The position numbers and the translations under genes are program-made. Positions 3,689 through 62,774 of a DNA stretch of 64,000 nt are shown here, one piece after another; the stretch's first letter is position 1; every line of letters begins with the position of its first letter. Source of the DNA: Acholoe squamosa (taxonomy: Eukaryota; Annelida; Polychaeta; Phyllodocida; Polynoidae); NCBI GenBank assembly GCA_949317995.1, contig OX439038.1, forward strand, positions 1,878,001 to 1,942,000, written 5' to 3'. Below the pieces are notes generated by a model that was not told the origin of the DNA, made no database searches, and saw nothing but the letters and a program-made list of their open reading frames with translations.

Positions 3689-3867
3689 ATGACTACTATA
3701 TGTACAAAGGAACGGAGTAGATATAGGGGTATATTTCCCCACTAGATGGACCTCCCCACCACCTGGGTCAGGTGGTACTGTGCTGCCACACCAGATGGCA
3801 CTGCACTGAGACTGAACAAAGGAACTGAGTCATGGACTCCATGGACATTTGGTCATAAAATTTTTCT
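3689..3867 (+). repeat. split direct repeat A1
   Basis: This 179-bp copy is repeated at 6478-6656 (A2). A1 includes the first codons of the reverse transcriptase ORF, so A2 carries a partial copy of that ORF start. Confidence 0.9.
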
Positions 3868-6371: not shown

Positions 6372-6400
6372 CTGGGCAAAGTGTTTTTGTATGCCGTGTG

Positions 6401-39500: not shown

Positions 39501-42500
39501 TAATAGGTGTTCAGTGATTTAAGTAAATATGTGTCGCCATAGTTTCACATGCTTTGTAATGTGTTGGAAATTTCCAAAGAAAGGAAGGATTTGGTTGAAG
39601 GAAAAGGGATTGAGAAAGTATTGTATAATTCCAAGAAATATTTAAAATAAATCATTCTTATCTTCAGTGAGCTCTCAATGCTCTGTCATGCCTAAAATAT
39701 CAAATATTGACTCTGAGAAAAGCAGATTATTGAGTAAAAATGAAGTTAATTCATCAAAAAAGGTCTCATATGTGAACCTGCATGGCAGATATCAGAGGTG
39801 GCGGACTAATGGAGGTCCAATTAAACTTGGCCATTGAACAAAAAGGGAAAATTTAAATGAAACAGTGACTGTGTCAATTACCTGTAGTAGAAGAAGGTGG
39901 CAAGGGCAGCGGTGGTGGTCAGCCCGGTGATGGCAACAACGACAATCAGGGTGATGGCCTCTGTAACAATTACATACAGTTTTACTATATTATATTACCG
40001 TAAACCTCTACTGTACATTGGTAGGCATGATGCAAGAATGCAGCCGTTATGAGCATTGCATCAATGCATCATGCCCACCCTATATGTAGGGGCAATGTCA
40101 AAGGGACAGCATGATGCATGAATGCAGCACAAGCATGCATCAATGCATCATAGACCTGATGCATCATGGGTAATGCACAAATAGCTAGTAAGGGTCTAAA
40201 ACCTTAATAGACTGATTTACTGGATTTACAATTAAGCTGTGTCATTAGTCTGAACTGGTTGTCATTCCTTAATACAGTTGTAGGGGCAGTAATTCCCCAT
40301 ACTTGGTGGAGATACCGAGTGGTCCCACCTTGTGAGGGGGATCTCTAGAGAGCTCGGTACCAGGTAATCACTGCCCCCTAGTGTGTGTATCATACCGATC
40401 CAGGTGTAGTTGGAAGGTAGAGAATGTCAGGCCAGGGGAAGTAGCTCAGGGGTAGAGCTTCCGCTTCGAAGTTGGAGGGTCCCGGGTTTGAGTCCCGGTT
40501 TCTCCATGACATTTTCCACTGACCACTACATTGGTGGAGAAACCGAGCATCCTAACGCAATCATGGATTGAAGGTACGGGAACCCTGTATCTTAACGCAA
40601 TCATGGATTGAGGACTCGGGAACTGGGCCGATATGATACAGATGACGCTTCGACCAATCCGGTACTTGTACCAGTACACCCACTGGGAAGTCAGGAGTGC
40701 CCCAACACTGCTTGATAAAGCCTCAACTCTCAGGTAACTGGATTGAGGGGGAATGCCGGGTGCTAGTGGATGGTGGTTGAAGCTGATGGGGAGGAGTGTA
40801 GGGGCAGTAATTCCCCGTACTTGGTGGAGATACCGAGTGGTCCCACTTTGTGATGGGATCTCTAGAGACCTCGGTAACAGGTAATCACTGCCCCCTAGTG
40901 TGTGTATCATACCGATCCAGGTGTAGTTGGAAGGTAGAGAATGTCAGGCCAGGGGAAGTAGCTCAGGGGTAGAGCTTCCGCTTCGAAGTTGGAGGGTCCC
41001 GGGTTTGAGTCCCGGTTTCTCCATGACATTTTCCACTGACCACTACACAGTTTATACATGTGAAACCCAACATACAATCCACAACATGAGTTCCTAAACA
41101 TACCCTTAGTCTGAGTATATAAGTCAGTATAACCCTCTGATATATAACTGATATGTTATATATATGGGTTTGTGTGAAGAGTAAGAGTGTTCATTACGTG
41201 CGTTATCCTGGCAGTGTTCATTCATCCATCCACAGGTCGGTGAGTCAAGTGGTGCTGAGGTCCGGCCCCCCTTGTACTTAACACCTACAGGGTGTGGTAC
41301 TCTATGTAGCTGCCCTGCCCGCGCGTCCCACCAGAACAACGTGTGCCACGCGTTATCCTGAAATATCTGTATCACATAGTCGGCCATCCTGTCACCATTA
41401 CTGTTTATAACCACTTCTCCACTGATACCTGCACAACAGGGAGTAAACAGAGAGAAGATTTCAGACTTAAAAAGCAAAATAATAGCCATTATCTTTTTGG
41501 CTTCTCCACTGAGTCTATACAGGGAGTTAAAGGGAGGAAATCAGAGTCTGTAAATGTGACCTTAAAAGGGGATATTGGTGATATCATGACCTTAGAGGGT
41601 CATATCGATCATGATCTGACATTGGAAAGTGATCATATCATCAATGTGGTTCTGACCTTGGAACAAGGTATTGATGATAATTGGCCCTGATAATTGACAT
41701 TGATGATGATATGACCTTGGAATATATTTATGACATACTTACATTGGAAGGGATATTAGTGATGTAATGACCTTAGAGAGTGATATGTAATGACCTTGAA
41801 GGGTGATATGTAATGACCTTGGAGGGTGATATGTAATGACCTTGGAGGGGAATATTGGTGATGTAATCATCTATTAAAGGGATATTGGTGATGTAATGAC
41901 CTTGGAGGGTGATATGTAATGACCTTGGAGGGTGATATGTAATGACCTTGGAGGGTGATATGTAATGACCTTCGAGGGGAATATTGGTGATGTAATCACC
42001 TATTAAAGGGATATTGGTGATGTAATGACCTTGAAGGGTGATATGTAATGACCTTGGAGGGTGATATGTAATGACCTTGGAGGGTGATATGTAATGACCT
42101 TGGAGGGTGATATGCAATGACCTTGGAGGGGAATATTGGTGATGTAATCACCTATTAAAGGGATATTGGTGATGTAATGACCTTGGAGGGTGATATGTAA
42201 TGACCTTGGAGGTGGATATGTAATGACCTTGGAGGGAATATTGGTGATGTAATCATCTAATAAAGGGATATTGGTGATGTAATGACTTTGGAGGGTGATA
42301 TGTAATGACCTTGGAGGGTGATATGTAATGACCTTGGAGGGTGATATGCAATGACCTTGGAGGGGAATATTGGTGATGTAATCACATATTAAAGGGATAT
42401 TGGTGATGTAATGACCTTGGAGGGTGATATGTAATGACCTTGGAGGTGGATATGTAATGACCTTGGAGGGAATATTGGTGATGTAATCATCTAATAAAGG

Positions 42501-48500: not shown

Positions 48501-51500
48501 TTATAAATGCTGATTTTCTATAGTTTTGGTTGCTATGGTAACCAAAAAGAACATTTTCTAAATTTCATCATTAACCAATTTTTTAATAAAATGTCGGATT
48601 TCCTACAATATGCACCTTATTTCATCACAATCGGTACAGGGAGTGTTGAGATATTACAATTTAAAGTTTGGTTGAATGATAAACTTTTCCCATTAAAACA
48701 CCATGATTCTGATCCTATTTCTCATAAAATAAAGTAGCTAGAGAAACCTTGGGTGTTACTCTTTCTGATTGACTAGCCCAGCCTAATCCATCACCATTTC
48801 CATTCTAATTGGAATATCCACATAATTCCAGCAGTTTTTGAAAGCCTATTACACCAACTATTACCCGAAATCTGCTCTGAAATAGCCTGGTAAAGGAAGA
48901 GTTAAAGGACTACATGCTGCCGGGGCATTCGGTTACCCTTTCAGGTAACGACCAGGTTGAGCAGTGGGTAAAACCACTACTGGAGAACATAGGAGTAGAA
49001 CCAGCCTCATATAGGGAAAAAGCCAGTGAAACTCAGACCGGCCATGTGACGTGTGGTGGACGAGTGGTAGGCCCCCTGGTGTAGTGGATACAAGCCCAGA
49101 GGCAGGTGCTGCCACCTGCCATCCGGATGCCCCCACTACACCCGAAGACCTAGGTCTGAGTCCCACGGGTGCATGAACGTATGAGTGTAAATACCATACC
49201 CCTACACTGCCCCCCTTAGACAATAACTTGGGGGTAATTAAATGCAGTGTATTAATAACCTAGTAAGTGATTGTTTTACAATACTAAAAAGGGGTATTAA
49301 TTACACTCACTCAATGTGAAATAGGCTATAGGATGAGACTATCCTATTTCTGAAAAATTATACAATAATAGCATCGAGTATCGTTCATCACAGTTCCACT
49401 AGTAACCATGACAACCACCTATGATAAGTGTAAGTATCCCAGATTATATTAACTTTGACAATAATAGAGTCCTGAAAAGGACTGGTGGTTGTAAGTCATG
49501 ACCGTAATACAGTTATTATACCCGAAAAAAAAAGAGTTTCTGACTTTTTAAATTAACAACTTTATCCACATTAAAGTGAACTGAACAATAAATATCAGAT
49601 ATGAACAATCATTCTGATACCTTAGTAAAAAAAAATATATAGCACCCACACTGGTATGCTTATATATTTTTTTTAACACAATAAGGTTTCAAACCTGAGT
49701 AATATAATACTAAATTAGAGAAATCCATTGGACCTTCTCTATTTTATAGAAGAAAAATATTTATATATTTGAGATGTAGCTCAATTTATACCTTAGTGTT
49801 TGATATTTACAAAGTACAGAAGAATTATAGTCTATTAATGTGTTGAGACCAGGAATGACCTATTTAGACAATTATAGGTCTAGTACTACCTTAAATAACT
49901 TAAAGGTAAGTACCTTTATATAATAATATATCTTTATGAAAGATATTAAAGTTATAAATACAGTTTTACATGCAATACAATAATATTAACAAAGTTTCTT
50001 GTTTCTAGGTGGAGAATATAGGTGGAGCCAGATGCTGCTGATGTCTTGGTACGGGCGAGCTGAACCCTGATGCCTGAAGTGCTATATAATCTTGAAATTT
50101 GTAGATTTTGGGCGAGCTGAACCCTAATGCCTGAAGTGCTATATAGGAATATGTAGATGGGCGTAGCTAAACCCTGTTGCCTGTAGTGCTAGCTAACTGG
50201 AGGTAGTAGTAAATCCAGTTGTAGAGTATATATATAGGAATATGTAGATGGGCGTAGCTAAACCCGGATGCCTGTAGTGCTAGCTGACAAGTTGTAGTTT
50301 TAAATCCATAATAACGTAATCCAGTTTTAAAAGTCCATAGTTCAATGGTAATAAGCACAGTCCTTAGGTAATAGCACAGTATACGAACTAGTTTAGATTG
50401 ACACCACTAGTTGTATTTTCTATGGACAGCATTCGTACTCCCTCTCCAAGGTAAGTTGTTTTCTGCTTTCAATTTCTGGATTAGGGTTCAGTTTATACCC
50501 GAATCAATACTTAACGGGTTGGATAAGAAAATGAATTCCCATCCAACAGTACATAAGTAATAACATATCAGGACACACAATTATGTCCTACCTACATGCA
50601 ACAGTTTTCACTATTCCATGTTCTCCTCGGTTGGCTGGTTTGGACCCGGTTGTTGAGTCGGTTGCTGAACAAGTGGGTGTACACCAGCTCCATCCGTAGG
50701 TACAGGGATTGCGGGGACAACAGGTGCAAGTTTCACCTTCTGGCGTGCTTCAAACAAGGTCAAAGCATGTCCAGGTGTGCCATCCCAGTTATCCATGATA
50801 ACTCCAAAGACTTTGAAGAACTTTTGTTGGTTTTTCATGTTCGTTGCCCGTTCTAAGTCGAGCATCTGAGAAGCTGTTTCCTTCTCGGATAAGGCTTCTT
50901 GCCGCAGATTAGCAGCTTCCTGCTTCTCTTTGGAAACATCAGCCTTTATCTGAGTAGAGATTCGGTTAATCTCTGACTTCTGGATCGCGTCTATGCACTG
51001 GAGAGCACTCGACACGGTTTGCCGACGGTACATATCCAAATGGAGGTTTTCCAAGTGGTGCTGTAACGTTTCAAATTGCTTGGTCTGTATGGCACAAGAC
51101 AATTTATCTTCCTTCTTGAAGAAGGTCTCCACTGTCTGGATCACTTTAGGCCGGTGGACCACAGCGCCAGGTGGGGGCACCTGACTCTGAGGTTTCGGCT
51201 GTGAACCAGACCCACTCGGAGTGACGGCTACCTGCATATATGCGATGAGGCAACTGCAGTAGTAGCCACACTAGCGGAAGTCATAGGAGGGCCTTGGTTT
51301 GGTAGTCCCTGGGTTAGGGGCAACCGAGACAATTCCCTTCTGAGGTCTTTAGCAGTCAACAATGGTGCGGGTGGACGTTGTCTCACCACAGCACTTGCAT
51401 CTCTGGTCCGGGTGGGCCCATAGCAGGGTACTGCTTCGGGTCTCGGACATTCAAGGGCGTATGTGTTCGGGAGGGGTGACCACCCAGTCCACTGACACCA

Positions 51501-54500
51501 AAGAATGTTGGGTTACATGCACCACCCTGGGGGGCAGGTGCTCGTCCATAATTGGAAGGAGTTCTAGTAGGAGATGGAAGATGTGGCTTCTTCCGTCCCC
51601 CATTTGCCTGTCTCTCCAGCGCTTCCAGTGGTGACCTGGATCGGCTAGGAGATTCAGATGCCTGTCTCTTCCTATCTGCTACAGAGGGTCCCTGACGGTA
51701 ATCCCTGCAGCTTCGGATTTGCTCTCCGGATGGAGTTACATGAGCCCCACCTCGCCGGCGGGCCTTATTACTCCTCCACTCGTTCAACAAATCATACTCC
51801 TCCTGAGCATATTCGAGTTTGCCAGACCCGGGAGTCTGGGCAAGTCTAGCCTTCAGCTTCTGGTAAGTACCAGGAACCGTTGGCGCAAACTGCTTCGTGC
51901 TCGGTGTGAGTGAAGCAAGTTTCTTGGCATTGAGGCTCTTGAGGTTACCATAGAGCTCAGAGTGAATTTTCATCACTCTTTCTATGGCTGCCTCCAGACC
52001 CTCTCCATGTGCAGTCACATAGTGCCGGATCATATCTCCGCATCGGGGAGTGACACATCCTGTGCATTTAGCACATTTCTTGCCAACTTCTCAATCGCAG
52101 ACATACTCTGGTCTCTGGTGCATATGAAACTCCACGAGATGACGAAGGAACTTGTCTTTCTTGATGAAGAATTCAACCTCACCTTCACTTTGGGTACAAT
52201 GTTGAAAGGGACAATCTTTACGATCCTCCCCGTAGTACTCATCTAGAGCAAACTTCAGTTTACCCTTCTGGTCGTAATTGTAAAGGCCATTGGGTGAATT
52301 CTTAATAAATTCCCAATAGATCCAATACATATTGGCCGGTTTCCTGTTGGAGAGCTTCTTACGAAGCCACTCCTCCATGTCCTCATGCCCTTCACAGGTT
52401 TTCAGAGGGGGTAGCTTCCATACGGATTTACTCCCCTTCAGATGTCCCCTGTGTAAAGGAATGAAGTCAGCAAAGTTGCTATTGGCGTTATCCCAGATAG
52501 CAGCCTCTTGCTCGGCAGTAGGAGTGGCGTCCACAACTGGGTCAACCGGCTACTCTCCCTCAGGGTCGGATGGTACATCCACGGGTTGCACAACAGGTTG
52601 TTGACCTGCGAGAACCTGGGCTGCGGCATCTTAAGCGTCTCCACTCAAATCGGCCATTATGTCATGTAGCTTGACTACTGGCACGCCGAGCTCAACCTTT
52701 ACGGTTGGAAGAGCCTGTTCAACTTCTGGAGTCTCGAGTTGAACATCTACCTCAATAGGTTCCGGTTTACATTGGTTAACCTTCTTCTTATTCCGTCTGC
52801 GGGGTCTGCCACTAGTAGGGGTGCCAGACTCGGATGCATCCGTCTCGTTGCCGGAGACATCTGAAGCCTTAGCTTCCTTCCTATTGGCCGAGCGTGGGGA
52901 CACCCGAAGAGTTCGGGTACTGTCGGCCACACTCGTGCTGGTTCAGTTTCTGACTGCTTCCCTTTACCCTTGTTGTTAGTGGGGGTACCCTTACCCTTTC
53001 CACTAGCTGGTTTCCCTGACTTCTTTTCAGTCTTCGGAGGGGTAGACTGAGCAGTTTTAGGGGAACTATCTGCACGAGGCGGAGCAGGTGGAGTCTTCTC
53101 AGGTACTTCTGCCGTATCTCCTGAGGTAGGAGTTTCAGCAGGAGACATGAGACGCTCCATCCGATCGGCCATTTTGGCTGTCACCGGCACGGGTGCTGGC
53201 CCAAGGACAAGCTCCAGGTGCGCCAGTGCATACTGCCTCTCCAATAGTCGTACTATGAGGTCCTGGATTACCCCGAGTCTGACTAGTGGAGACACACCAA
53301 TCTGGGCCTCCTCTGCCTCAATGGTTTGAGACGTGACAGTAATCCACAACAGTGTTACCTGCTGCTTCATACTCCTCCGCTGTTCCTAGAAATAGGATGT
53401 GGTGTCTGTCAATGTACCTAGAGACTTCGTCTGCCTTGACACCAGTGTAACCCGTTCTGTCAGACACATAGGAAGGCCTATAAAAGCTATTCCTGTGGAA
53501 AGCCATTTCTGCATCCCAGACGGCTTTGACAACACGTTCGTCAACCTGTCTGGATGTCCCATCACAGGTGGGCATTAGCATTTCTTCCGAAATAGCCAAC
53601 ATCCTTCCGTCATAGGGACCGGCTACATCCTGCCATTCAGGACTGTCTGGAGGGGGCAACTCTAGATGCATTGGCCTGTCAACCGGAGAAGCAGGTTCCA
53701 AGGCATCATGTGAGGTGCTCACACTCAAACGGAGCGGGAGTTGAAGGGGAGGTGGCATTAGAGTCCTGTCATTAGACTGGACTCCTGCTGACCCTCCACT
53801 CAGACTTTCAGATGGAGGAGCTACATAAGGCTGACCTACATCGATTGATTGCTGCACGCGACGGCGTTCAGGACTCGCTTGTCTGGAGTTATCGGATGCA
53901 TCATAGAATGTGTCTAAATCGCTATCATCCACTCCAGAGAAGTACTGATCAACATTCATCTGTTGATCCATCTGATCACAATCAGCATCATATTGCTGAT
54001 CATCGTATGTGTAAGTGGGACTCCTAGGAGAACCACTACCATACTCCGGCGGGGTGCTGGCACCGGCACTACCAAGGCAAACAGCCTCTTCTGCCATTGG
54101 CAGAAGTGGCTTTACGGGGATAAATTATCCCAATTCACCGGATAAGCAGTTAAAACTGCTTACCCAGTGAAAGGTGGGTGCCTTTTAACGAGGGCACACC
54201 TCGAAACATGGCTGCAAAAGGCTATCAAACTCCTAAAAGAGTAGGACCACTCTCGGCCACCTCTTCTTCCTTTGCAGGAATAAGACAATATGGCGGGTTA
54301 CTCAAACTTGAATCGCTGCGCATTATCAAACCGGCGCGTCACCTGACCAGCCTAAAGAGGTCTTTCCCACGTGCCCTTAATTAGGTCACATCCTTTTACA
54401 TAAAGACAATACAATACCTGAACGGTCATCTGTCCGTACTCGTGTTTCAACCATGACAACTCACTAGGTATGATAGAGTTTATGGATAGCATAAGCATAT

Positions 54501-57500
54501 CCACCGGATTATCCGTCCATAACCATGGGTACATTGTCATGGGTCATTTTCCAGGAACTCGCAACCGGCTAAGATCAACATTGAACAAGGTTACAACATA
54601 TAACAGTAAAGGACAACACACTCATTGTGTTAACAGGCTAGGTTACGGCAGTCTTGAGCAACCTTGGACTGCGTCTAAGAGGTTTTGAGGCCTCTTTTGT
54701 TGACCTGGTATCCATAAGAGCCTTTTCCCAGGTCTTCTTAGCCTTAGAAGTACCTTTCCTCTTATTTCTACCTGCACCTGCCGAGACTTTTTGTATCTTC
54801 CCCTGTTTTCCGGATGTTACAACAGGGGGCACCACCTTCTTCGGGTTTACAACCTTCCCTGGCCTCACGGGTCCTCGCTTCCGGGTCGGTACCACTTTAA
54901 GTTGTCTTACACGATCGTGTTCTAGCACTTGCAATAGACCATCACCATACATTTCAGTGGAGGTATCCCTCCCCTCCATGGGTGTAGTCTTGCTACATTT
55001 GACTTGTAACATTTTCCCATCTGTGATTTAATAATCACTGTACAATAACTGATAACCTGCGTTATCGTGAAGGGTCCCTTCCAATTACTGGCTAATTTCA
55101 GGTTGGCAAGGGTTTTGTGTAGACGCAAAACTCTATCCCCAAAAACAAAAAAATCTAGCTTTTAGACCTGTGTCATAACCAACCTTCTGCCAATGTGCAG
55201 TTTTCTGCAACTCATCTCTAACCCTCTCATAGGCTTGTTTGAAGTTATCTCATAGAGATTCTACAAACATCACCTGGCAAGGGGCTTCCGGATTCATTCT
55301 TACTACGCCAAACACCAAATCTGCTGGCATAATTAAATCCTCTCCAAAAACAAGGAGATTAGGGGAACAATTGGTGCTCGAGTGTACAGTGCTATTATAA
55401 GCATGTACCACGAATTCACACTGTTTGTCCCAATCATCCATCTGCTCATTTACTAGAGATTTCAATACTTGGATCAGTGTCCTATTGAATCTCTCTACTT
55501 GTCCATCACTCTGTGGCCTATAGGGATTAGTTGCAGATTGTCTTGCAGATTGCTAGACAATTACACATCTCTTGCCACAGGCTAGACTCAAATTCTCTGC
55601 CGTGGTCACTATGTAACATGAGTGGGACACCTAGGTGTAATACCCACCCTTTTACAAAGGCCATAGCACAAGTAGCAGCCTTATGATCCGGTAAAGGATA
55701 CACTCGGGTGTACTTGGTATAATAATCTGACACGACCATCATACACGTGTTGCCACTAGGAGTGAGAGGGATCCCACTAATAATGTCAAGAGCTACTCTA
55801 GCAAATCTCACACCAAACAGTTCCTGGGATAATGGCAATTTGCCCAACCCGGGTTCTGGTTTGTTCTTACAGCATTCAGGACAGGTCTCTACCCATCGGG
55901 TGAGATCTGTACTCATGCCAGGCCAATAGTATCGTCTGGCTAGACGTTCTAGAGACCGTTTCTTTCCAAAGTGTCCATGACAGAAATACATAATATCTCA
56001 TGGCATAGCACTGGGTATGACAACTTGCAAGGCTTTCTTCCTATTAGAATAGTTCTTCCATTGGAATAGAAGACCATCCCGGACTTCTAGCTCAGCCCAT
56101 TGAGCTAGGAATCTTCTCATTTCCCTGTTTTCCAATTACACTTCAGGTCTTGGGGGACAGATGCCCTGATTAAGAAACTTAATCAAACGTGATGTGACTG
56201 CACCAGCCTCCAATTCAAAACATTTTCCGGTTGGGTTTCGAAATGTCCTCGAACCCCTGCCAATACAGCATTGTGTGCTCCACAATCAGTGCACTCAGCG
56301 TTTGCACATTTCCTCACCGGGATTCTAGACAAAGCATCCGCATTTAAATGCTTTGCCCCGGCTCGTTGTTCAATCTGATTTAGACCAAATTCGGATAGGT
56401 GCGCCAACCAGCAACCTATCATCCCCTCTGCATCCTTGAAGTTCAATAACCATCTGAGAGAAGAGTGATGATTCCACAGAGTGAAATTACTTCCCCACAA
56501 AAAGTGCTTGAACTTCTTTGTATAGACCACCACAGCCAACAACTCACATTTAGTGGTACAATAATTTCTTTGAGATTTACTCAAGTGTTACTAGCGAAGG
56601 CTATAGGAACCTCAACCCCATCCTCGACCTGAGAAAGGGCAGCTCCTATGCTTTCATTACTAGCATCAGTATCTAGAATGAAATGATCATTCTCTGTCGG
56701 GTACTTCAACACAGGTGTACTAGCAAACAACTCCTTTATTTTCATTAAGGCTTCGTCTTGCTCAGATCCCCAAGGAAATCATTCTTTCCTCATTCCGGGT
56801 GTCCAATGGTGTCTGAATAGGAAAGGCGACCCTTGAATATCCTGGTATAAAGTCCCTGTAATAGGAACAGAATCCAAGAAAGGATCTAACTTCTTTACCA
56901 TTCGTGGGTGCCTGCCAATTTGATACAGCATCCAGTTTCTCCGAATCGGCTTTAATCCCTTCATTCAAGATTATTCGTCCCAAGTAATTGATGGATCTCA
57001 TAAAGAGATCACATTTCTTGGGCTTCAGCTTCAATCCATTAGCTAGGATCCGTTCCAGATCCTTACCTAAATTTTCCAAGCATTCTTCGTATGTCTTTCC
57101 AAAGACTATCACATCATCCAAATAGACGAGACATTTCTTCCATAATAGGTCACTTAATAAAGTTTCCTACATGGCTTCAAATGTCGCCGGTGCATTTCAC
57201 AACCCAAACGGCATCACATTATATTGGAATAGCCCAATATGACTGGAAAAGGCTGTCTTCTCCATATCTTTCGGATGCATACCCACTTGCCAATACCCGG
57301 ATTATAAGTCTAGAGAGCAATACCATTGCTTACCTCCAAGGGAGTCTATAGTCTCATCAATCCGTGGTAAGGGATATGAATTCTTCTTGGTCATACCATT
57401 CAATTTTTGGTAATCTATGCAAAAACGGATGGTACCATCTTTCTTAGTCACCATGCACACAGGGCTAGACCAAGGACTGGTTGATGGGACTATCACATCC

Positions 57501-60500
57501 TATTAGAATATCTAATTCCGGGTTCCTTTCGGGTGAGGAAGGGACTCCCAGTGCCAAAGCATGCTCACAGCCTTCTACTATTTCAGAGAGGACAACCGAC
57601 CCTAGGATTGTATCCTTCTGAACGTAGACAGTTTTATTACCGGTATTGGATATAGGAACCACTCTCCAAGCAGCATTTGCCAATAGGGCATTAGTGGATT
57701 CCAATCCGATACTTGACAACATTGCCACATTTGGCTCTATAACTCCAGTTTTTCCTAAAATCTCTCCATAGGCTCGACATAAGACATCACAGGCAGTGCT
57801 TGGTGGTATCTTAACAGTCTGGGCTACACTGGCTACACTACTTACTTGTCTGAGTACACATTGTACTTCGAGATGATATGGGTCTCTAACCTCCAATATT
57901 CTCCTCTGGGAATCTAACCTTGCTCCATATAATGCAGCAAAATCCAGACCAAGTATACCATCATCTGCGATGTTCGCCACAGTAGGAGTAAGGATAAAAT
58001 CCTTATCCTTCTGTAGACTGAACCTCATACATGTTCTACCAAACGTTTGCATCGTGCAACCGTTGGCCGTACAAGCATTTCCTTCCATTATGGAATGTTC
58101 ATGATTCGTAGGCAAAAGGTCATAGAGCCTCTTAGCAATACAGGAGTGGCTAGCACCTGTATCGACAAGAAACTCAGCAGACCTACCACTCACAGATACA
58201 ACTGCGTACCACCTCCTACCTTTCAAGTAGGTAGGACAACTTGCAAACTTGGCAAGTTCCATCTTAGAGCCGAGGTCAAATCCAAATCCCTTCAAAAATT
58301 CGGGACAAGGATGACCCGGGGGAAGCTGGGCACACCCCACCCTGGCCAACCCATTGGCCACTTCTTCTTGACTGATATCGGGTTTCCCCTCTGTGTTCTT
58401 CTGATGGTTCTTGACACCTGGTGTACTATCAGTCTCCCCAGCCTCATGAGTAAGGAACTGATCAGGTTCCTTAGCTCCACTGCTGGGCGAATTCGCTAGA
58501 GGATTCTCACTAGTACTACAAGCTGTGATAGGCTGGCAGTCATGGCAATCACTCACTCTGGGGGTAATCCGGTTGCCATCATAGACACCCCCTCTCAGTT
58601 TTCCTTCTTCACTGAGTCCTCCTTATCCGGATGGTTCCGGTAACTCAGATATACTGGCTTATCTGCTTCACATTCAGCAGCATAATGTCCAGTTTCCTGA
58701 CATCTGAAACACTTCACTACACTCCTATCAGGCCTAGGCCTTCTAAGATTTTCAGTGATCTTCTGTACCAAGGTGGTAACCAGGTCCTCTGATAAAGACG
58801 GACCGGTATTCGGTTTGGTATCAGGAGTTTTAGTGGCAATCACTTTCTCCTTGACATAACCTGGTTTCTTTCCCCAGTTCCGGTTATACCGGGGGTTTCC
58901 TTGGCCAATGGCCCCAACGTTTTCATTGTCATCAGGTTCTCCTGATTCGGATGAATCGGTCTCAGGTATCCCCTCCAGAACTATCATAGCTTACATCCGT
59001 TGGGGTACCTTCCCGGCAAAGATCCGGGCCTTATGATCATAATGATCTAAGGACTGGATCAAAACTGCCAAAGAGGCATCATTCTTCCAAGCCTCACAGG
59101 CCACGGTCCCGTGTTCCTGATTCTGCAATCCTTCGATGAATTGTTTAAACATTTCATCTAGGAAGCACTCATCATCTAATCTCCATTGAGGTCTGGTTTT
59201 ATGCAACAGTCGTTGGCATTCTAAGCCAAAAACTTTGGCAGATTCCTTAGGTTTCTGAGTTCTTTTAGTGAACGTCAACCAAGGACCTTCCCCAACTATG
59301 TTTCCATATAAATATGAAGCAATCTCTATGAGTTTATCAGGTTAATCCCCTACTCCATTCCATGATTTCCGTATCGTCCAGACCTTGATTGTAACAATCA
59401 ACACCTAGGTTAGAAATCGCTGCATTTGAATCATGCAGTGCTTGCAACCCTGGAGAAAGAGATACTCGTCGACTGAGTCTCTTTTTCTGTGGAGGATTCG
59501 TACCATAGGTTCCTCCAGAGCCACCGGGTGGTGGTCCTCCTTGACACCCTGATCCCCCTGCCCCGGATGTAGGCACCTGTGAAAAGGTGTTTCCATCGGT
59601 TTGAGGAGTTGACCCTGGATTATTGGTGGACTGTGTACTTCCACCAAAACTAAAGAAACCACTATTGTTATTAGTGTTTCTTCCTGTTCCAGACGACTGA
59701 TTTCCATTATTGAAACCAGCTCTACCCGCAAAGGGGTTACCTCTGGAACTACCTGCTGAGGATCCGGATCCTTGAGAGTATCCGGGTTGTCCTCCAGTTG
59801 CACGGGAATTCCCAGATGTTTGTCCGGATGTTTCTCCAGATTGGGCATTACTATCTGATGGCTCTTTACTTCTTCACAACGAGGTACAGTGTTTTCTGTT
59901 ACCTCGTCCTTACCCCTCAAAGAGTTCATCTGGTCACCCGCCATGTTTAGGACAATTCCTGAAACAGTGAAGTCTGTTTCAAGAGTGCCCACCACATGTC
60001 CAGTATCCTCTAGATACTTTGACATCTGGATAGCTTTAGTTTCCAGTTCCGAATAGTCATTCAGCATTCTTGTCTGTTTAGCAGTCAAATTTGCTGATTC
60101 ACATATCCATTGACCTCTGAGTTTTTCATGCTCTTTGGTTTGTTTATGATACGTATTTCATGCATCTTTGAAGGCTGTTTCAATCTTTTTCAGCTCTTCT
60201 TGATACTTGCCATGGGCCGATTGAGTTGAACTTATCTCTTGTTTAGTTCTATTCAACTCTTCACACGAGGCTTTATATTCTAAATCCATGGTGTATAAAG
60301 CATCATGATATTGTTCGTGCTGGAGTTGGAAATCTTGTTTTTCCTTCTCCATTCTATCCAACAATTCTTGTTGTTGGCATCTAGAACTCTGATCGGAATC
60401 AAGATGTTCTGACATCAACTGTTTGTTTTCAGTCAAAATTCTGTCTCAAGTCCCGGTCAGTGTGATGAGATCCAATTGGATCTTCTTGTATTCAGCTTTC

Positions 60501-62774
60501 ATGTCTTCAAGCTCATCCATTTTATTTTTCTCAAATCCACACTTCTGGTGTCTGATTCGAGAACTGTATGGAGTTTCAAACATACCTGCACTTGGCTTAG
60601 GTACCTCAAATGGTAGTTGACCAAATTGAGCGGTACTTCTATGCATAGGTGCAGGTTTTGAAGTACCTCCTGGCATGAAAAAAGAATCTCCGAATTCTTC
60701 CAGTTCATCATGTAAGTTCTTTTTTACATCCACTAACCCGTCTGGGTAGTGTTCTTGTGGATTTCTCCCCCCTGTTACTGGGGATGGTGACATGATTTCA
60801 CCATCTCCCATCAGGGAATTTAGCTCAGGATCTGGGCCATTTCCCCTAACTGGGCTCAGCTCAGTCATTTCTGACTGCGCTTACCCGAAGACCAACTGGT
60901 CACGGCACCAGTGTAGTGGTTCGGCTCAATAAGTTAGATTAAATCATAACGAAGAGAGAAGAAGTTTCTGGGTAGGCAACCGAGCTTTTATTGCCTAAGC
61001 TTTGGTTACATACAATCACGGCCTTAAATGACTACATGCTGCCAGGGCATTCGGTTACCCTTTCAGGTAACAACCAGTTTGAGCAGTGGGTAGGACCACT
61101 ACTGGAGAGTATAGGGGTGGAACCACCTTTATATAGGGGAAAAGCCCGCGAAACTCAGACCGGCCATGTGACGTGTGGCGGACGAGTGGTAGGCCCCCTG
61201 GTGTAGTGGATACGAACCCAGAGGCAGGTGCTGTCACCTGCCATCCAGATTCCCCCACTACACCTGAAGACCTAGGTCTGAGTCCCACGGGTGCATGAAC
61301 GTATGAGTGTAAATACCATACCCCTACAGCAGGTTAAAGCTAGAATTCATAAGCACTATGATTTTTTGACACTTAAAAATGCACTTGTAAATTACAATTG
61401 GGATCATGTGGTCCTGATGGAAAACTGTTTTAGATGAAATGTGCCCAATTAAAAAGATATGTATTCCTGAATGTACACCGCTGTGGTTGACCCAAACTAT
61501 TATGGAACTGAGGTGCCAAAGGGATAGATTATATAGGAGAGCAAAAAATACAATGTTAGTTGATGACTGGCGTGTTGCTAACTTTTATAAGCACAGGGTG
61601 GGTGACGCAATGTTTATTAGTAAAAAAAGAGAAATTGAACATCCTTTAACAATTAGGAAGAATGATCCCCGCAATTTTGGGAAGCTATTTAAAAACTATT
61701 ACCTAATAAAACTAAAGCCACCTTTATTAAATTGTGACATAATATATCAGGGCTAATGGTACCAACAGCAGAATGTGCTGAGTATATAAGTCGCTGTTTC
61801 ACAGATGTAGGGCCAAACTTAGCAGCAGCATTGCCAATTAGGGCTGCATTCCACTTTGTTCATCAGTTGTGATAATCCTTCAACAGCAACTGATGCATCC
61901 ACATGAATGCTGCCCTGAAGAGTTATTCACCAAGGCTACATTCATACATCCACATTCATGATGCATGAATGCATCCCTGGTAAGTAACTTGCCAAGGCTA
62001 CATTCATGCATCCACATTTATGATGCATGAGCCCTGGAGATTTACTCCTAGGACTAAATCTTGTGCACCTTTGTCTATGTAGTTTATATACTTACTTCTG
62101 ACCTGGTCCTTGAGCATCCTTACAACCTGTTTCTGTAAAGTGAGTAGGTCGTCCACCACCTCGTCCCCCTCAAACACACTCTGCATGGCGTGGAAGAACA
62201 CCTCCTTACCGCTCCGCTCCAGGTCCCCTGCTATGGCCTTACAGGTTAGATGGTTAATGTTCTGGTCTGTGGTGACCACCCCGACCCGCTGCCAGCCATT
62301 AAGGTCTACCCACTGGTTAAACATGGGGGCTAGTGCTAGCCATGTACCAACCGTCCGGGAGAAGGTCGGGTAGGTGAACTTGTTACTGAGGCTTTCTGAG
62401 GTACAGCCGAAGGACACAAACGGGATGTTCAGTGCGTCGGCCATATTGGCCACCGGCTCGCAGACCACGCTACATATGCTACCCACAATGCCGTGTAACT
62501 CAGACTGGAAGTAAGACCACATGTCCATGGTCATCCGCATACCTTGTCGTGAGCGGCAGTGGTCATCCCGCCACTGCCAACACAGGGTCAGGTTATCAGG
62601 GAGGAGAGAGAGTTCTTTTACCTTTCTCACCCCGAGGATGGCGCCCCCAGCCATGTACGGCCCCAGCTCCCAATCCCGCGTCCACGGGATGAGAATACCA
62701 AGGTTAATGTCTTCTCCTGCCACCAGGGGCACCAGGCAGTTAGTGACAAGAACCACCACCAGGGTGTGTGCCAT
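15464..62774 (-). CDS. receptor guanylate cyclase, natriuretic-peptide-receptor type, 22 exons
   Basis: A single-pass membrane receptor that makes cGMP from GTP. Exons (plus coordinates): 62096-62774, 46709-46819, 45565-45639, 44691-44797, 43022-43157, 41198-41428, 39882-39960, 39364-39451, 38629-38733, 28912-28992, 28228-28332, 27592-27663, 26988-27147, 25888-26040, 25368-25542, 24760-24900, 22360-22483, 22206-22274, 21776-21950, 21022-21120, 19514-19605, 15464-15571. Coding length is 3165, or 1054 residues, close to vertebrate NPR1/NPR2. Domains by residue: signal 1-20, ligand-binding to about 446, membrane helix 447-472, pseudokinase about 503-785 (HGNL replaces HRD, DYG replaces DFG, so no kinase activity is expected), coiled coil 786-832, cyclase 833-1030. 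The cyclase keeps both metal Asp ([15 protein letters not shown]), the guanine-selecting Glu and Cys (VETIGD, RYCLFGD) and the Asn/Arg pair (NTASRME). It looks functional. The ligand cannot be told. Confidence 0.93.
15790..17870. repeat. minisatellite CCTGGCAGGTTAGTTCCTGATGCAGGAATGTAG
   Basis: About 2.1 kb of tandem repeats in intron 21. The basic unit is about 34 bases, with variable insertion of an extra 11-base GGCAGGCCCTG block. Units differ slightly (GATGCAGG, GATGAAGG, GATACAGG). It runs straight into the next array. Confidence 0.97.
17871..19495. repeat. 40-bp minisatellite rich in CAG/CTG
   Basis: About 40 copies of a 40-base unit containing ATGCAGCACAGCAAGCTCTG and CTGTAGATGCAGCGCTGCAG. 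Because 40 is not a multiple of three and the unit lacks stops on the minus strand, all three minus frames are open for hundreds of codons. These long Cys/Ala/Leu-rich frames are not genes. With the previous array it fills nearly the whole intron between exons 21 and 22. Confidence 0.97.
19514..19605 (-). CDS. guanylate cyclase exon 21
   Basis: Encodes [18 protein letters not shown] and [12 protein letters not shown], the end of the cyclase fold where the known family reads L-RIHVS-T. The acceptor is AATTTCAG and the donor GTAGGT; phase 1 in, phase 0 out. Confidence 0.93.
19790..21006 (+). mobile_element. non-LTR (LINE) fragment, RT to 3' end
   Basis: A 5'-truncated LINE inserted antisense in intron 20. 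The start reads a finger-domain block ([17 protein letters not shown]), then [19 protein letters not shown], a decayed LYADGA catalytic block near 20200, and a 211-residue open thumb/C-terminal part (20346-20981) with [13 protein letters not shown], a form of the FKYLG block, and [10 protein letters not shown]. It ends with AATAAA and a short A run at about 20988-21006. Stops interrupt the RT region, so it is a dead copy. Confidence 0.85.
21022..21120 (-). CDS. guanylate cyclase exon 20
   Basis: Encodes [20 protein letters not shown] followed by [12 protein letters not shown]. It contains the guanine-contacting Cys and the catalytic Asn and Arg. The acceptor is TACTTCAG and the donor GTACAG, a weak but acceptable donor. 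Confidence 0.93.
21121..21775 (-). other. intron 19, nothing recognised
   Basis: Unique-looking AT-rich sequence with no array, RNA or transposon signature that I can see. Confidence 0.5.
21776..21950 (-). CDS. guanylate cyclase exon 19
   Basis: Encodes [20 protein letters not shown], then [16 protein letters not shown] and IQIRIGIHT. It holds the second metal-binding Asp and the guanine-contacting Glu. The acceptor is CTTGTAG and the donor GTACCT. Confidence 0.94.
22206..22274 (-). CDS. guanylate cyclase exon 18
   Basis: Encodes [18 protein letters not shown] and FDVYK, the helix after the first metal-binding motif. The acceptor is ATTTCAG, the donor GTAAGT, both phase 0. Confidence 0.94.
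22360..22483 (-). CDS. guanylate cyclase exon 17 (catalytic start)
   Basis: Encodes [20 protein letters not shown] then [20 protein letters not shown]. It includes the first metal-binding Asp. The acceptor is AATTTCAG and the donor GTAAGG. Just beyond its upper edge lies the intron that holds the exon-derived 49-bp array. Confidence 0.94.
22864..24759 (-). repeat. 49-bp minisatellite made of exon 16 end plus splice donor
   Basis: About 39 units of 49 bases fill most of intron 16 and abut exon 16 without a break. Read on the minus strand each unit is about 34 bases of exon end (codons for KVE-LLYSILP) followed by the donor CAG/GTAAGGAGACAAAG. The exon itself differs from the unit at only about three positions. 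Most units keep a GT donor. The unit length is not a multiple of three. Confidence 0.95.
24760..24900 (-). CDS. guanylate cyclase exon 16 (coiled-coil linker)
   Basis: Encodes [40 protein letters not shown] and LYSILP, the dimerising helix between pseudokinase and cyclase. The acceptor is ATCCACAG. The donor GTAAGG at 24759 is the outermost of a long series of near-identical donors in the adjoining array; I chose this one because the upstream sequence matches the family and phase 2 fits exon 17. Confidence 0.92.
24901..25367 (-). other. intron 15, nothing recognised
   Basis: No repeat or gene signature is visible. Confidence 0.5.
25368..25542 (-). CDS. guanylate cyclase exon 15
   Basis: Encodes [20 protein letters not shown], the block [18 protein letters not shown] and LIDINGG. 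The CW-E-P-RP-F pattern is the conserved end of a protein kinase-like C-lobe. The acceptor is CTTACAG and the donor GTTAGT. Confidence 0.94.
25888..26040 (-). CDS. guanylate cyclase exon 14
   Basis: Encodes [20 protein letters not shown], then [20 protein letters not shown]. The WKSPELL and [12 protein letters not shown] blocks match the pseudokinase domain of receptor cyclases. The acceptor is TATCTATAG. An LTR-type insertion begins only 21 bases beyond the acceptor. Confidence 0.93.
26062..26880 (+). mobile_element. LTR plus start of internal region, LTR-retrotransposon fossil
   Basis: The LTR (26062-26429, 368 bp) begins TGTAGGGG and ends ATTACA. It is followed directly by a primer binding site, TGGTGCCGTGACC (26431-26443), complementary to the 3' end of animal tRNA-His. 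The internal part continues to about 26880 with a short open start at 26488 and decayed coding sequence. There is no second LTR in this intron, so it is a truncated fossil. It lies antisense to the cyclase gene in intron 13. Confidence 0.75.
26988..27147 (-). CDS. guanylate cyclase exon 13
   Basis: Encodes [20 protein letters not shown], then [23 protein letters not shown] stands where active kinases have HRD, and DYG where they have DFG, the usual pseudokinase state of this family. The acceptor is TTTACAG and the donor GTAAGT. Confidence 0.94.
27592..27663 (-). CDS. guanylate cyclase exon 12
   Basis: Encodes [20 protein letters not shown] and DIAK, matching the DIL-ND-I-L-FK block of the family. 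The acceptor is CTTACAG and the donor GTAGGC, phase 0 on both sides. Confidence 0.93.
27664..28227 (-). other. intron 11, nothing recognised
   Basis: AT-rich sequence without a visible array or transposon. Confidence 0.5.
28228..28332 (-). CDS. guanylate cyclase exon 11
   Basis: Encodes [20 protein letters not shown] and [25 protein letters not shown] and CxKGSL are conserved in receptor cyclases, the latter here with Ala-Gln in place of Cys-Ser/Pro. The acceptor is CATACAG and the donor GTAAGG. Confidence 0.94.
28481..28850. repeat. 55-bp minisatellite, 7 units
   Basis: Seven nearly identical 55-base units starting ACCTGTGTCTGTAGGTACCT lie in intron 10, about 60 bases from exon 10. Confidence 0.95.
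28912..28992 (-). CDS. guanylate cyclase exon 10
   Basis: Encodes [20 protein letters not shown] then [12 protein letters not shown] is the kinase-homology lysine strand. The acceptor is CTTCAG and the donor GTGAGT, phase 0 on both sides. Confidence 0.93.
28993..30375 (-). other. part of intron 9, possible SINE trace
   Basis: No gene is seen. On the minus strand near 29715-29730 there is a B-box-like GGGTTTGAATCC, which may be a decayed tRNA-derived SINE, but I find no matching A box at the right distance. Confidence 0.35.
30376..30640. repeat. GTCAACTGTCAA-rich palindromic stretch
   Basis: Repeated GTCAACTGTCAAGTT and its complement, including the palindrome CAACTGTCAAGTTGACAGTT, lie at irregular spacing just before the hairpin satellite. 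Confidence 0.7.
30640..32226. repeat. 63-bp hairpin satellite, about 25 units
   Basis: Each unit contains TACATCATGACTTTTACATG and the near-perfect hairpin CATGCTGACCCTA-TGG-TAGGGTCAGCATG (13-base arms, 3-base loop). In some units the right arm ends CAGATTAC instead of CATGATAC, shortening the hairpin. The array lies in intron 9. Confidence 0.96.
32227..32870. other. unassigned stretch with a 124-codon open frame
   Basis: A plus-strand open frame (32248-32622) begins just after the satellite. It has no recognisable motif, no neighbour and no sign of selection that I can judge. I treat it as chance or as transposon debris. Confidence 0.3.
33598..33816. repeat. foldback element with perfect 32-bp inner arms
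   Basis: Inner arms 33670-33701 and 33731-33762 are perfect inverted copies over 32 bases (starting CACCAGCACTTCATTGGAGC). Outer arms 33598-33626 and 33788-33816 are also inverted, with a few mismatches, sharing CAGGAGTGCATCATGCC. It is the best-preserved member of a foldback family found through the gene. Confidence 0.85.
34084..34929. mobile_element. 846-bp MITE with CACTGCAAAAATGG inverted ends
   Basis: The ends CACTGCAAAAATGGTGTTTA and its complement form terminal inverted repeats of over 20 bases with TA on both sides (34082-34083, 34930-34931). The inside has many TAAACATGTTTAG-like palindromic motifs near both ends and no transposase. The CACTG start recalls CMC/Chapaev-type ends, while the TA flank recalls Tc/mariner; the superfamily is open. 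Confidence 0.75.
34930..37790 (-). other. part of intron 9, no gene seen
   Basis: Low-complexity CATGTC/GTGTCGATTTT-type repeats occur at about 35740-35930. Otherwise I see nothing that can be named. Confidence 0.4.
37795..38170. repeat. 46-bp minisatellite, about 8-9 units
   Basis: Units read TTAACCCTTTGTCTGCTGGT then ATAGACATAATGATTAACACA, with small changes. Confidence 0.95.
38185..38590. repeat. foldback-family relative (decayed)
   Basis: Contains AAAGGCTGCTGATGAAG and GCATGATGCACCAGTGGAGTT segments matching the 33598-33816 foldback, in a less ordered state. Confidence 0.45.
38629..38733 (-). CDS. guanylate cyclase exon 9
   Basis: Encodes [20 protein letters not shown] and [15 protein letters not shown], the start of the kinase homology domain. 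The acceptor CCCCCCACAG has a good pyrimidine tract; the donor is GTAGGT; phase 0 on both sides. Confidence 0.92.
38997..39054. repeat. foldback, 23-bp arms
   Basis: CATGATGCACCAATGGAGTG at 38997 pairs with the inverted copy at 39032-39054 with one mismatch over 23 bases. Same family as 33598-33816. Confidence 0.8.
39364..39451 (-). CDS. guanylate cyclase exon 8 (juxtamembrane)
   Basis: Encodes [20 protein letters not shown] then LSGKTSFKT, the basic stop-transfer and the W-I-W-E juxtamembrane block of the family. The acceptor is TCTCCAG and the donor GTAAGT. Confidence 0.92.
39882..39960 (-). CDS. guanylate cyclase exon 7 (membrane helix)
   Basis: Encodes [20 protein letters not shown] and TFFYY, a single hydrophobic helix followed by Arg/Lys from exon 8. 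The acceptor is TTGTTACAG and the donor GTAATT. Confidence 0.93.
40020..40170. repeat. foldback-family relative
   Basis: Repeated GCATGATGCATGAATGCAGC and GCATCAATGCATCATG segments in inverted arrangement. Confidence 0.5.
40435..40506 (+). tRNA. tRNA-Ala-like sequence in LTR1
   Basis: It folds as a cloverleaf. The acceptor is GGGGAAG with TTTCTCC, the D arm GCTC/GAGC and the T arm CCGGG/CCCGG, with a five-base variable loop and discriminator A. The acceptor includes G3:T70, the known identity pair of tRNA-Ala. The A box (TAGCTCAGGGG) and B box (GGTTTGAGTCC) are intact. The anticodon stem has a mismatch and the anticodon is CGA, not an Ala anticodon. It is a repeat-borne tRNA-like gene, not an ordinary tRNA. 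Confidence 0.7.
40532..40545 (+). promoter_or_regulatory. primer binding site of the TRIM-like element
   Basis: TGGTGGAGAAACCG, one base after LTR1, is the exact complement of CGGTTTCTCCA plus CCA, the mature 3' end predicted for the tRNA-like sequence inside the LTR. Confidence 0.75.
40952..41023 (+). tRNA. tRNA-Ala-like sequence in LTR2
   Basis: Identical by eye over all 72 bases to the copy at 40435-40506, although the first 90 bases of the two LTRs differ at several sites. Confidence 0.7.
41198..41428 (-). CDS. guanylate cyclase exon 6 (end of ectodomain)
   Basis: Encodes [20 protein letters not shown], then [15 protein letters not shown] and [14 protein letters not shown]. The G-x-V-I-NGDR block and the membrane-proximal Cys pair are typical of NPR ectodomains. 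The acceptor is TGTGCAG and the donor GTAATG, which is weak. Confidence 0.9.
41560..42730. repeat. complex minisatellite GTAATGACCTTGGAGGGTGATAT
   Basis: A 23-base unit and a longer variant (ATATTGGTGATGTAATCACC, TATTAAAGGG) alternate in higher-order blocks of about 240 bases from about 41760 to 42730; scattered related units start near 41560. Long minus-strand open frames here come from the repeat. Confidence 0.93.
43022..43157 (-). CDS. guanylate cyclase exon 5
   Basis: Encodes [20 protein letters not shown], then [20 protein letters not shown] and NMTFQ. The AG-LHDA and DG-ITQNI blocks match NPR ectodomains; N-x-T sites are present. The acceptor is CATACAG and the donor GTAAGA. Confidence 0.93.
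43158..43990 (-). other. part of intron 4, nothing recognised
   Basis: No repeat array or gene is visible. Confidence 0.45.
43995..44195. repeat. foldback-family relative
   Basis: Contains CTGATGCATTAATGTATCATGC and GATGCACCAATGAAGTGCCG followed by an inverted GCCAGCACTTCATG. Confidence 0.5.
44225..44640. repeat. 26-bp minisatellite, about 16 units
   Basis: Units of GGGTTAACCATATAGCAGTC and CTTAAA repeat with few changes, about 50 bases from exon 4. Confidence 0.96.
44691..44797 (-). CDS. guanylate cyclase exon 4
   Basis: Encodes [20 protein letters not shown], then [15 protein letters not shown]. The acceptor is ACATCCAG. The donor is GTCAGT, GT but off consensus; phase 0 joins it to exon 5. 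Confidence 0.87.
44798..45564 (-). other. intron 3, nothing recognised
   Basis: No array or transposon signature is visible. Confidence 0.45.
45565..45639 (-). CDS. guanylate cyclase exon 3
   Basis: Encodes [20 protein letters not shown] and ANVK. It has an N-x-T glycosylation site. This short exon is the least conserved; it is supported by phase agreement on both sides and by AG/GT borders (TCGATAG and GTAGGT). Confidence 0.78.
46075..46242. mobile_element. 168-bp MITE, CAGTGGCGGATCCAG ends
   Basis: Terminal inverted repeats CAGTGGCGGATTTAG and CTGGATCCGCCACTG with AATTCA on both sides (46069-46074, 46243-46248). The inside is short and non-coding. Ends of this kind are common in invertebrate hAT-like MITEs, though those usually duplicate eight bases. 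Confidence 0.8.
46709..46819 (-). CDS. guanylate cyclase exon 2
   Basis: Encodes [20 protein letters not shown] then [16 protein letters not shown], the central strand-turn block of the ligand-binding fold (known family: D-R-M-A---GM-NGEY-F). The acceptor GTTCCAG gives the right phase with exon 1. Confidence 0.91.
47070..47973 (+). mobile_element. LINE fragment, endonuclease part (left half)
   Basis: A 272-codon open frame (47176-47994, of which the part to 47973 is LINE) encodes an AP-like endonuclease: [22 protein letters not shown] and VSDHCPIY. It is antisense to the cyclase gene. It is cut at 47973 by the 13.4-kb LTR element and resumes at 61329. The endonuclease looks intact, but the reverse transcriptase is missing. 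Confidence 0.85.
47974..49206 (-). repeat. 3' LTR, split by a MITE
   Basis: Begins TGTAGTGGTTCGG and ends CCATACCCCTACA on the plus strand, matching 60912-61328. The MITE and its duplicated TTAA account for the 816 extra bases. Confidence 0.92.
48090..48901. mobile_element. 812-bp MITE with TTAA target duplication
   Basis: Inverted ends CTCTTCCTTTAC and GTAAAGGAAGAG, with TTAA at 48086-48089 and 48902-48905. The uninterrupted LTR copy has a single TTAA at the same place. TTAA is the target of piggyBac-type transposases. No transposase is encoded. Confidence 0.88.
49207..49218 (-). promoter_or_regulatory. polypurine tract of the Ty3-like element
   Basis: On the minus strand AAGGGGGGCAG directly precedes the 3' LTR, as expected for the plus-strand primer site. 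Confidence 0.8.
50050..50290. repeat. short repeats in the element's 3' untranslated part
   Basis: Four copies of about 33 bases, GGGCGWAGCTRAACCCTGAT followed by GCCTGAAGTGCTA, lie near 50052, 50110, 50159 and 50250. Confidence 0.7.
50611..54097 (-). other. extra coding region of the Ty3-like element, function unknown
   Basis: Downstream of integrase, where some elements carry env, several minus-strand open stretches run from 54097 to 50611. The first (53318-54097) is acidic and Ser/Pro-rich ([12 protein letters not shown]). Then come a basic Lys/Thr/Pro-rich part, a part with zinc-finger-like Cys/His spacing (DCPFQHC about 52150; FLRHLVEFH), a basic Arg/Ser part (SPSRSRSP) and a helical end (about 50611-51237). 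No signal peptide or membrane helix is seen, so it is not an ordinary env. The region is broken. Confidence 0.65.
54638..58556 (-). other. pol region: protease, RT, RNase H, integrase (broken)
   Basis: In order on the minus strand: aspartic protease with [10 protein letters not shown] (about 58130); reverse transcriptase with [20 protein letters not shown] (about 57450) and [13 protein letters not shown] (about 57120); RNase H with CELLAVV and HLNADALSR (56183-56584); integrase with the HHCC region [19 protein letters not shown] and the core [19 protein letters not shown] (55527-55991); then a basic C-terminal part with a KVKCSKTTP-like end (54638-55128). The order PR-RT-RH-IN is Ty3/Gypsy. 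It has several interruptions. Confidence 0.88.
58595..60868 (-). other. gag region of the Ty3-like element (broken)
   Basis: The start at 60868 reads [11 protein letters not shown] coiled-coil-rich stretch (60158-60436), a Gly/Pro/Ser-rich linker and a capsid-like helical stretch (58991-59278, [20 protein letters not shown]) follow. A CCHC zinc knuckle [14 protein letters not shown] lies near 58700. Several interruptions are present. Confidence 0.8.
60899..60911 (-). promoter_or_regulatory. primer binding site, tRNA-His type
   Basis: TGGTGCCGTGACC, one base inside the 5' LTR on the minus strand. The first 12 bases complement the 3' end (GTCACGGCA plus CCA) of animal tRNA-His. Confidence 0.8.
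60912..61328 (-). repeat. 5' LTR of the Ty3-like element
   Basis: 417 bp, TGTAGTGG..CCCCTACA on the plus strand. It contains a hairpin GGTGTAGTGG..CCACTACACC around GGCAGGTG..CACCTGCC near 61200-61265. Confidence 0.93.
61329..61872 (+). mobile_element. LINE fragment, right half
   Basis: Continues the LINE of 47070-47973 after the LTR element. It encodes the linker before the reverse transcriptase ([34 protein letters not shown]) and, after a frame change near 61750, a [20 protein letters not shown] block. It ends without RT at a foldback-type repeat. Confidence 0.8.
61875..62040. repeat. foldback-family relative near exon 1
   Basis: Repeated CTACATTCATGCATCCACAT and GATGCATGAATGCATCC with the GCATGATGCA-type core, ending about 55 bases before exon 1. 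Confidence 0.55.
62096..62774 (-). CDS. guanylate cyclase exon 1 (signal and ligand-binding start)
   Basis: Encodes a signal peptide ([20 protein letters not shown]) and the first part of the ectodomain: [37 protein letters not shown] and [19 protein letters not shown], with Cys spacing like natriuretic peptide receptors. I chose Met at 62774 because a hydrophobic signal follows at once; an in-frame Met at 62825 would place 17 hydrophilic residues in front. The donor is GTAAGT; one base of the next codon is left over. Confidence 0.92.

Follow-up and report, generated by a model that had tools for sequence, protein, structure and literature searches.

Within the window, the whole 64,000-nucleotide stretch of Acholoe squamosa DNA that was analyzed, a noncoding two-LTR element of the TRIM type (40279..41047, 769 bp) carries a tRNA-like gene in each LTR, and its primer-binding site (PBS) is complementary at 14 of 14 positions to the 3′ end of that tRNA plus CCA, exactly as a preliminary description of this DNA had stated. 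The LTR tRNA and the PBS vary together among related elements of the same genome. We consider it likely that a pol III tRNA gene lies in the LTR and that its product, once CCA-tailed, serves as the primer when the element is reverse transcribed with the enzymes of a Gypsy relative.

The element begins with TGTAGGGG and ends with ACCACTACA, and its two LTRs differ by 5 mismatches in 251 aligned positions plus one gap. The architecture proposed earlier (TG..CA repeats of 251/252 bp, a CAGT duplication, a purine tract, and a PBS in 769 bp) was confirmed at the coordinates listed here.

40275..40278, no strand: left copy of CAGT, 4-bp target site duplication (TSD)
40279..40530, plus strand: 5′ LTR, 252 bp, starting TGTAGGGG and ending ACCACTACA
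40304..40361, plus strand: fossil PBS and leader in the 5′ LTR (TGGTGGAGATACCGAG...), 79 to 83% match to the internal leader of families B, C, D, and F
40435..40506, plus strand: tRNA-Ala-like gene of the 5′ LTR (ARAGORN; Rfam RF00005, 48.7 bits), 3′ end CGGTTTCTCCA
~40442-40452 and ~40485-40495, plus strand: A box and B box of the 5′-LTR tRNA, positions assigned by eye
40512..40515, plus strand: TTTT, putative pol III terminator, 5 nt 3′ of the 5′-LTR tRNA
40532..40545, plus strand: PBS TGGTGGAGAAACCG, one base past the 5′ LTR, 0 mismatches to the LTR tRNA 3′ end plus CCA
40788..40796, plus strand: polypurine tract GGGGAGGAG, preceding the 3′ LTR
40797..41047, plus strand: 3′ LTR, 251 bp
40822..40835, plus strand: fossil PBS in the 3′ LTR, same as that in the 5′ LTR
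40952..41023, plus strand: tRNA-like gene of the 3′ LTR, same as that in the 5′ LTR (ARAGORN; Rfam)
41029..41032, plus strand: TTTT (T4 run) after the 3′-LTR tRNA
41048..41051, no strand: right copy of CAGT, 4-bp TSD

In family A, to which the window element belongs, the LTR contains the PBS and leader in decayed form; families B, C, D, and F have them internally. A stop-to-stop frame of 165 aa on the minus strand overlaps the TRIM. The tRNA-Ala-like cloverleaf that the preliminary description saw in each LTR stands in part. Both ARAGORN and Rfam recognize a tRNA, and its body is Ala-like, with G3:U70 kept in the acceptor stem (by eye), but the anticodon is CGA (tRNA-Ser according to ARAGORN), the anticodon stem is mispaired, and the minimum free energy (MFE) fold, at −28.1 versus −21.6 kcal/mol for the cloverleaf, is not a cloverleaf. 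The two RF00005 matches are the sole hits in the window at the gathering score; the 5S rRNA that marks the LTRs of Cassandra and Ajax is not among them.

At least 41 full-element DNA matches with 97 to 100% identity were identified in the same genome (1.48-Gb assembly, nearly all of it in 18 contigs, C1 to C18), with 40 of 2624 candidates scored, which rules out a single copy or an artifact. All 41 family-A copies start with TGTA and end with ACTACA, and 31 of the 41 are flanked by a perfect 4-bp TSD; four of these 31 (L001, L002, L016, and L017) have common flanks and were counted as one insertion. The LTR pairs are identical in 7 of the 37 elements measured (of 41), and family A has therefore moved recently. 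Four TRIM copies on contig C4 (at 1637413, 1729492, 1918279, and 2027381), ~92 to 190 kb apart, have identical 8-bp flanks and TSD and probably represent a segmental duplication rather than four insertions. At another locus (C9:67545011-67547294), two full-length matches overlap with an offset of 514 bp; this is a tandem TRIM (LTR-int-LTR-int-LTR), as known from Cassandra and LTR-11_DR.

The tRNA T-arm together with the 3′ end (GGTTCRANNCCNGGTTTCTCC) has 3597 matches in the genome (control, 0). The loci fetched from these fall into several two-LTR families with different LTR bodies, tRNA-to-tRNA spacings of ~409 to 742 bp, and the anticodons CGA, GCA, and CAA, all of which have the tRNA-U5-PBS module in common; at other loci, the anticodon is GCA, CAA, TGC, or GAA. 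Because loci were chosen by their tRNA end, the constancy of that end among them is no proof of conservation. Fifty loci from the same list (L041 to L090) lie in LTR-like context, L060 being rearranged and L063 ending just past the tRNA. Two-LTR copies number at least 41 in family A, plus 16 elements of other families, and the earlier classification as a TRIM holds. One TRIM subfamily (L101, L102, and L105 to L114) carries a near-canonical tRNA-Ala(TGC) in its LTR, and some LTR tRNAs score as high as 68.5 bits, compared with 68.4 bits for host Ala(TGC) and 72.7 bits for host Ala(CGC); this subfamily will inflate tRNA gene counts for this genome. At L044 and L047 (families B and F), a third TGTAGGGG lies internally, behind a purine tract, as though part of an LTR sat nested within the internal region.

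In family A, the element's own tRNA forms 14 of 14 pairs with the PBS in 35 of 40 modules and 13 pairs in the other 5 (43 modules were found, 3 chance matches in 3′ flanks were dropped, and one of the 41 elements is without a module). The PBS (0.70%) and the tRNA end (0.22%) vary about as much as other parts of the element (0.71 to 1.12%), so conservation within family A shows little. Covariation was examined across families using a pattern built from the end of U5 and both ends of the PBS (TGG...CC); it left the tRNA free and gave 1806 sites (control, 0). Among the 100 sites listed, all on C1, PBS classes tallied by hand comprise 66 sites with TGGTGGAGAAACC, 13 with TGGTGGAGACACC, 9 with TGGTAGGGAAACC, 6 with TGGTGGAAACACC, 2 with TGGTGAAGAAACC, and one each with TGGTGGAGATACC, TGGTGCAGACACC, TGGTAGAGAAACC, and TGGTGTAGGGGCC. 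Variants other than TGGTGGAGAAACC thus account for 34 of the 100, and 33 were examined, the TGGTGTAGGGGCC site lying outside the count. The loci fetched comprise every site in the three recurrent variant classes and those with TGGTGGAGATACC and TGGTGCAGACACC (30 together), plus 10 more (9 common and one TGGTGAAG), and the tRNA ends for four PBS classes were predicted in writing before the letters of the loci were inspected.

A matching tRNA change is present at 26 of the 33 variant-PBS sites and at 25 of 28 in the three recurrent classes, which answers the check on tRNA/PBS covariation suggested in the preliminary description in its favor. The diagnostic tRNA letters agree at 12/13 sites for TGGTGGAGACACC, 9/9 for TGGTAGGGAAACC, 4/6 for TGGTGGAAACACC, 1/1 for TGGTGGAGATACC, and 0/1 for TGGTGCAGACACC (26/30 together); the prediction for the lone TGGTGCAGACACC site was the one of the four that failed. 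Loci with the common PBS that yielded a module have the tRNA end TTTCTCCA in 8 of 8 cases. The seven unmatched sites are L113, L120, L124, L136, L141, L057, and L071. Three of them, L141 and L057 (TGGTGAAG, TGAAG) and L071 (TGGTAGAG, TAGAG), have a single odd PBS base next to the common tRNA end, as expected of lone PBS mutations that arose after insertion.

Over 39 modules from 40 loci (L126 gave none, and the reading of L120 is shifted by one base), pairs average 13.21 versus 11.88 after shuffling, and 0 of 10000 shuffles scored as high; the PBS classes are few and related, so this figure is not a probability. Changes on both sides occur at tRNA positions 67 (G-C 16, U-A 18, A-U 1, and four off), 69 (C-G 33, U-A 5, and one off), 70 (U-A 29, C-G 9, and one off), and 72 (C-G 28, U-A 9, and two off). 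For two loci in this count, L125 and L120, host Ala is a better fit than the tRNA of the element itself. The predicted fold of the tRNA-U5-PBS stretch does not surpass those of its shuffles (z −0.49). Complementarity ends at 14 nt; that of the HIV primer is 18 nt.

The placement of T4 runs fits a short tRNA transcript. Each of the 41 family-A copies has T4 after both of its tRNAs and no other T4 anywhere; in the window element, the two runs start at positions 234 and 751 of the element. T4 follows the tRNA in 30 of 32 LTRs of the 16 elements from other families, with one other T4 in 12,510 bp, and in the families read the run lies ~4 to 7 nt past the tRNA. Of shuffled LTRs, 1.2% have T4 at the same place, and the absence of any other T4 from one element alone is not significant (P(0)=0.62). 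Leaky termination could produce a template RNA that ends at the second T4.

A Gypsy-type LTR element with Pfam hits to protease and integrase occupies ~48902-61328 of the window on the minus strand. In the one Gypsy copy examined, known from sequence alone, the LTR starts with TGTAGGGG and ends with ACCACTACA, the same termini as in the TRIM, and the leader AGTTGGTCTT after its PBS is that of TRIM family B. The Gypsy element differs from the TRIM in coding for protease and integrase and in its PBS, TGGTGCCGTGACC, which we take to be of the tRNA-His type. The Gypsy boundary has 1218 exact matches in the genome. The TRIM seems to have kept the integrase ends and the leader of its helper and to have changed primer specificity. 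The Gypsy LTR copy near 48.9 to 49.2 kb diverges before the LTR end that is present in the other copy.

From this layout we infer a route that runs from transcription, processing, and CCA addition to priming, together with a template promoter and a helper. The element would be a Helenus-like TRIM whose LTR carries a compact pol III tRNA gene, with an A box, a B box, a CCA-ready 3′ end, and T4 a few nucleotides downstream. The short transcript would be processed and CCA-tailed like a tRNA, and the last 14 nt of the LTR tRNA would prime minus-strand synthesis at the element's PBS. The PBS of a new copy would be partly templated by the primer 3′ end, so that mutations in the LTR tRNA would enter the PBS and the pair would stay matched across subfamilies. 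In retroviruses, the progeny PBS is dictated by the primer tRNA, according to the available part of PMC4549124. Self-encoded priming predicts a PBS that tracks the LTR tRNA over several changes. The template RNA may be made by pol II, or it may be a pol III read-through transcript that runs from the 5′-LTR tRNA past its T4 to the T4 behind the 3′-LTR tRNA, R then being the tRNA with its trailer. A Gypsy relative whose LTR termini are the same but whose PBS is of a different, tRNA-His type would supply the proteins. Weighing against the proposal are the seven unmatched variant sites and the failed prediction, the mispaired anticodon stem and noncloverleaf MFE fold of the window tRNA, the lack of a folding signal over tRNA-U5-PBS, the 14-nt limit of the complementarity, and the need for a Gypsy enzyme set that seemingly uses tRNA-His to accept the LTR tRNA. 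With somewhat more reserve, we also think it probable that this lineage at large encodes its own primer as an LTR tRNA gene, that a leaky terminator yields both primer (terminated) and template (read-through), that the PBS is rewritten in each cycle, and that a private primer-PBS code drifts by lineage, independent of host tRNAs. The self-contained priming envisaged in the preliminary description gains support from the matched changes at 26 of 33 variant sites and from the lack of a matching host tRNA-Ala among the genes compared; the priming step itself we infer.

The refuting case named beforehand, an ordinary tRNA-Ala of the host that shares the 3′ end of the LTR tRNA, was not found in a host-gene search that was incomplete. 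A host tandem array at ~5.09 to 5.13 Mb of C15 (L091 to L100) contains genes for tRNA-Ala(TGC), tRNA-Ala(CGC), and tRNA-Leu(CAG). Its Ala(TGC) and Ala(CGC) genes have the 3′ end CCGGCATCTCCA (ten overlapping loci; one gene copy differs). Their tRNA 3′ ends, read as GGCATCTCCA, differ from that of the LTR tRNA and form 11 to 12 of 14 pairs with the family-A PBS, which excludes them as an exact match. For the window PBS, host Ala(TGC) forms 12/14 pairs versus 14/14 for the element's own tRNA, with duplex energies of −20.6 versus −26.5 kcal/mol. The 3′ end occurs without either of two upstream TRIM letters in 38 of the 3597 genome matches, under a pattern blind to host genes with T at either upstream position or with another T-arm. 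Five of the 38 were examined (L073 and L101 to L104) and are LTR copies; the other 33 are known as 34-nt matches alone.

These host data bear on an explanation in which a host tRNA with such 3′ ends is the primer and the LTR tRNA was captured from a gene of that kind and acts as a pol III promoter only (Kojima's TRIMp3 model). Published Helenus PBSs do fit host tRNAs, with no own-tRNA match in the available part of that account (PMC10886601), the body of the LTR tRNA is host-Ala-like, and our search patterns may overlook host genes, the comparison having covered Ala(TGC) and Ala(CGC) among the host Ala genes. We nevertheless hold a borrowed host primer to be improbable: the host Ala(TGC/CGC) genes end GGCATCTCC, just 38 of the 3597 GGTTTCTCC ends are without both upstream TRIM letters, all five examined being LTR copies, and the T4 straight behind the tRNA favors a short transcript. 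Moreover, there are at least three PBS classes (the ends concerned are GGTTTCTCCA, GGTGTCTCCA, GGTTTCCCTA, and GGTGTTTCCA), and each would need a separate host tRNA.

It is likewise unlikely that the tRNA 3′ end and the PBS, ~24 to 26 nt apart, form a structural stem in the same RNA, with covariation keeping the stem and with another tRNA or the RNA's own end as the primer. Such a hairpin would account for the inverted repeats that lie close together in six families and in the covariation loci, it explains covariation equally well at tRNA positions 63 to 73, and the MFE fold lets the PBS pair locally with the U5 tail TTTTCCAC. It does not account for TGG, the counterpart of the unencoded CCA, which all 41 family-A copies keep and which finds no partner in the post-tRNA letters (TGA in 40/41); the PBS occupies the canonical place, and the predicted MFE fold is without a tRNA-end/PBS stem. 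Shared ancestry alone, in which an ancestral element matched by accident and its subfamilies inherited linked blocks, appears highly improbable. The tRNA, U5, and PBS do lie within ~110 bp and are co-inherited, the classes are few, and 7 of 33 variant sites are unmatched, but inheritance explains the persistence of a match and not the both-sided changes at positions 67, 69, 70, and 72, and in family A the fossil PBS of the LTR, which is not in use, shows drift at one site, unlike the PBS in use. Chance is ruled out by the copies together with the covariation.

To our knowledge, LTR retroelements, including retroviruses, are taken to need a host tRNA or the end of their own transcript for priming; Tf1 primes from the 5′ end of its own RNA. 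If the LTR tRNA does serve as the primer, a mobile element carrying its primer gene would break the dependence on host tRNA and could evade host control aimed at host-tRNA PBSs. Several primer-PBS classes coexist in one genome, which makes the proposal directly testable. Tf1 and others are named as self-priming LTR elements in the available part of PMC6934838; the window element would resemble them in needing no host tRNA primer and differs by its embedded tRNA gene. Among the hits listed in a literature search with most subscription journals outside its coverage, no paper reports that an LTR element encodes the tRNA by which it is primed.

The preliminary description called the arrangement unfamiliar in animals, and this has to be narrowed, since TRIMs with tRNA-like LTRs (Helenus, TRIMp3) are already published (Kojima 2024, PMC10886601). 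As far as the available part of that paper goes, the LTR tRNA was considered there as a primer, and no complementarity to the PBS was found. Helenus and the window element are both TRIMs of similar size with a tRNA-derived sequence per LTR, a PBS, a polypurine tract, and, for Helenus in animals, 4-bp TSDs, and both are probably mobilized by Gypsy, a likeness that rests on the described features, not on comparison with the sequences of named families. The PBSs of Helenus were assigned to host tRNAs, whereas that of the window element pairs with its own tRNA at 14/14 positions, with covariation (PMC10886601, available part). The window element would thus be an exception to the sole published statement found on LTR-tRNA/PBS complementarity. 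In Cassandra, also a TRIM, the LTR likewise contains a pol III gene together with its promoter and terminator, but according to the available part of PMC7215508 the gene is 5S rRNA and not tRNA, the PBS (TGGTATCAGAGC) is a standard tRNA-complementary site, and the hosts are plants.

Elsewhere in the window, positions 3686-6656 hold, flanked by 182-bp direct repeats (99%), an ORF for reverse transcriptase and after it one that resembles a tyrosine recombinase by eye but has no Pfam hit; this is possibly a DIRS/Ngaro-type element. Long tandem arrays with units of ~34 to 44, 49, and 63 bp lie at 15.8 to 19.6, 22.8 to 24.8, and 30.7 to 32.3 kb, and one reading frame in the window contains an ANF-receptor fragment.
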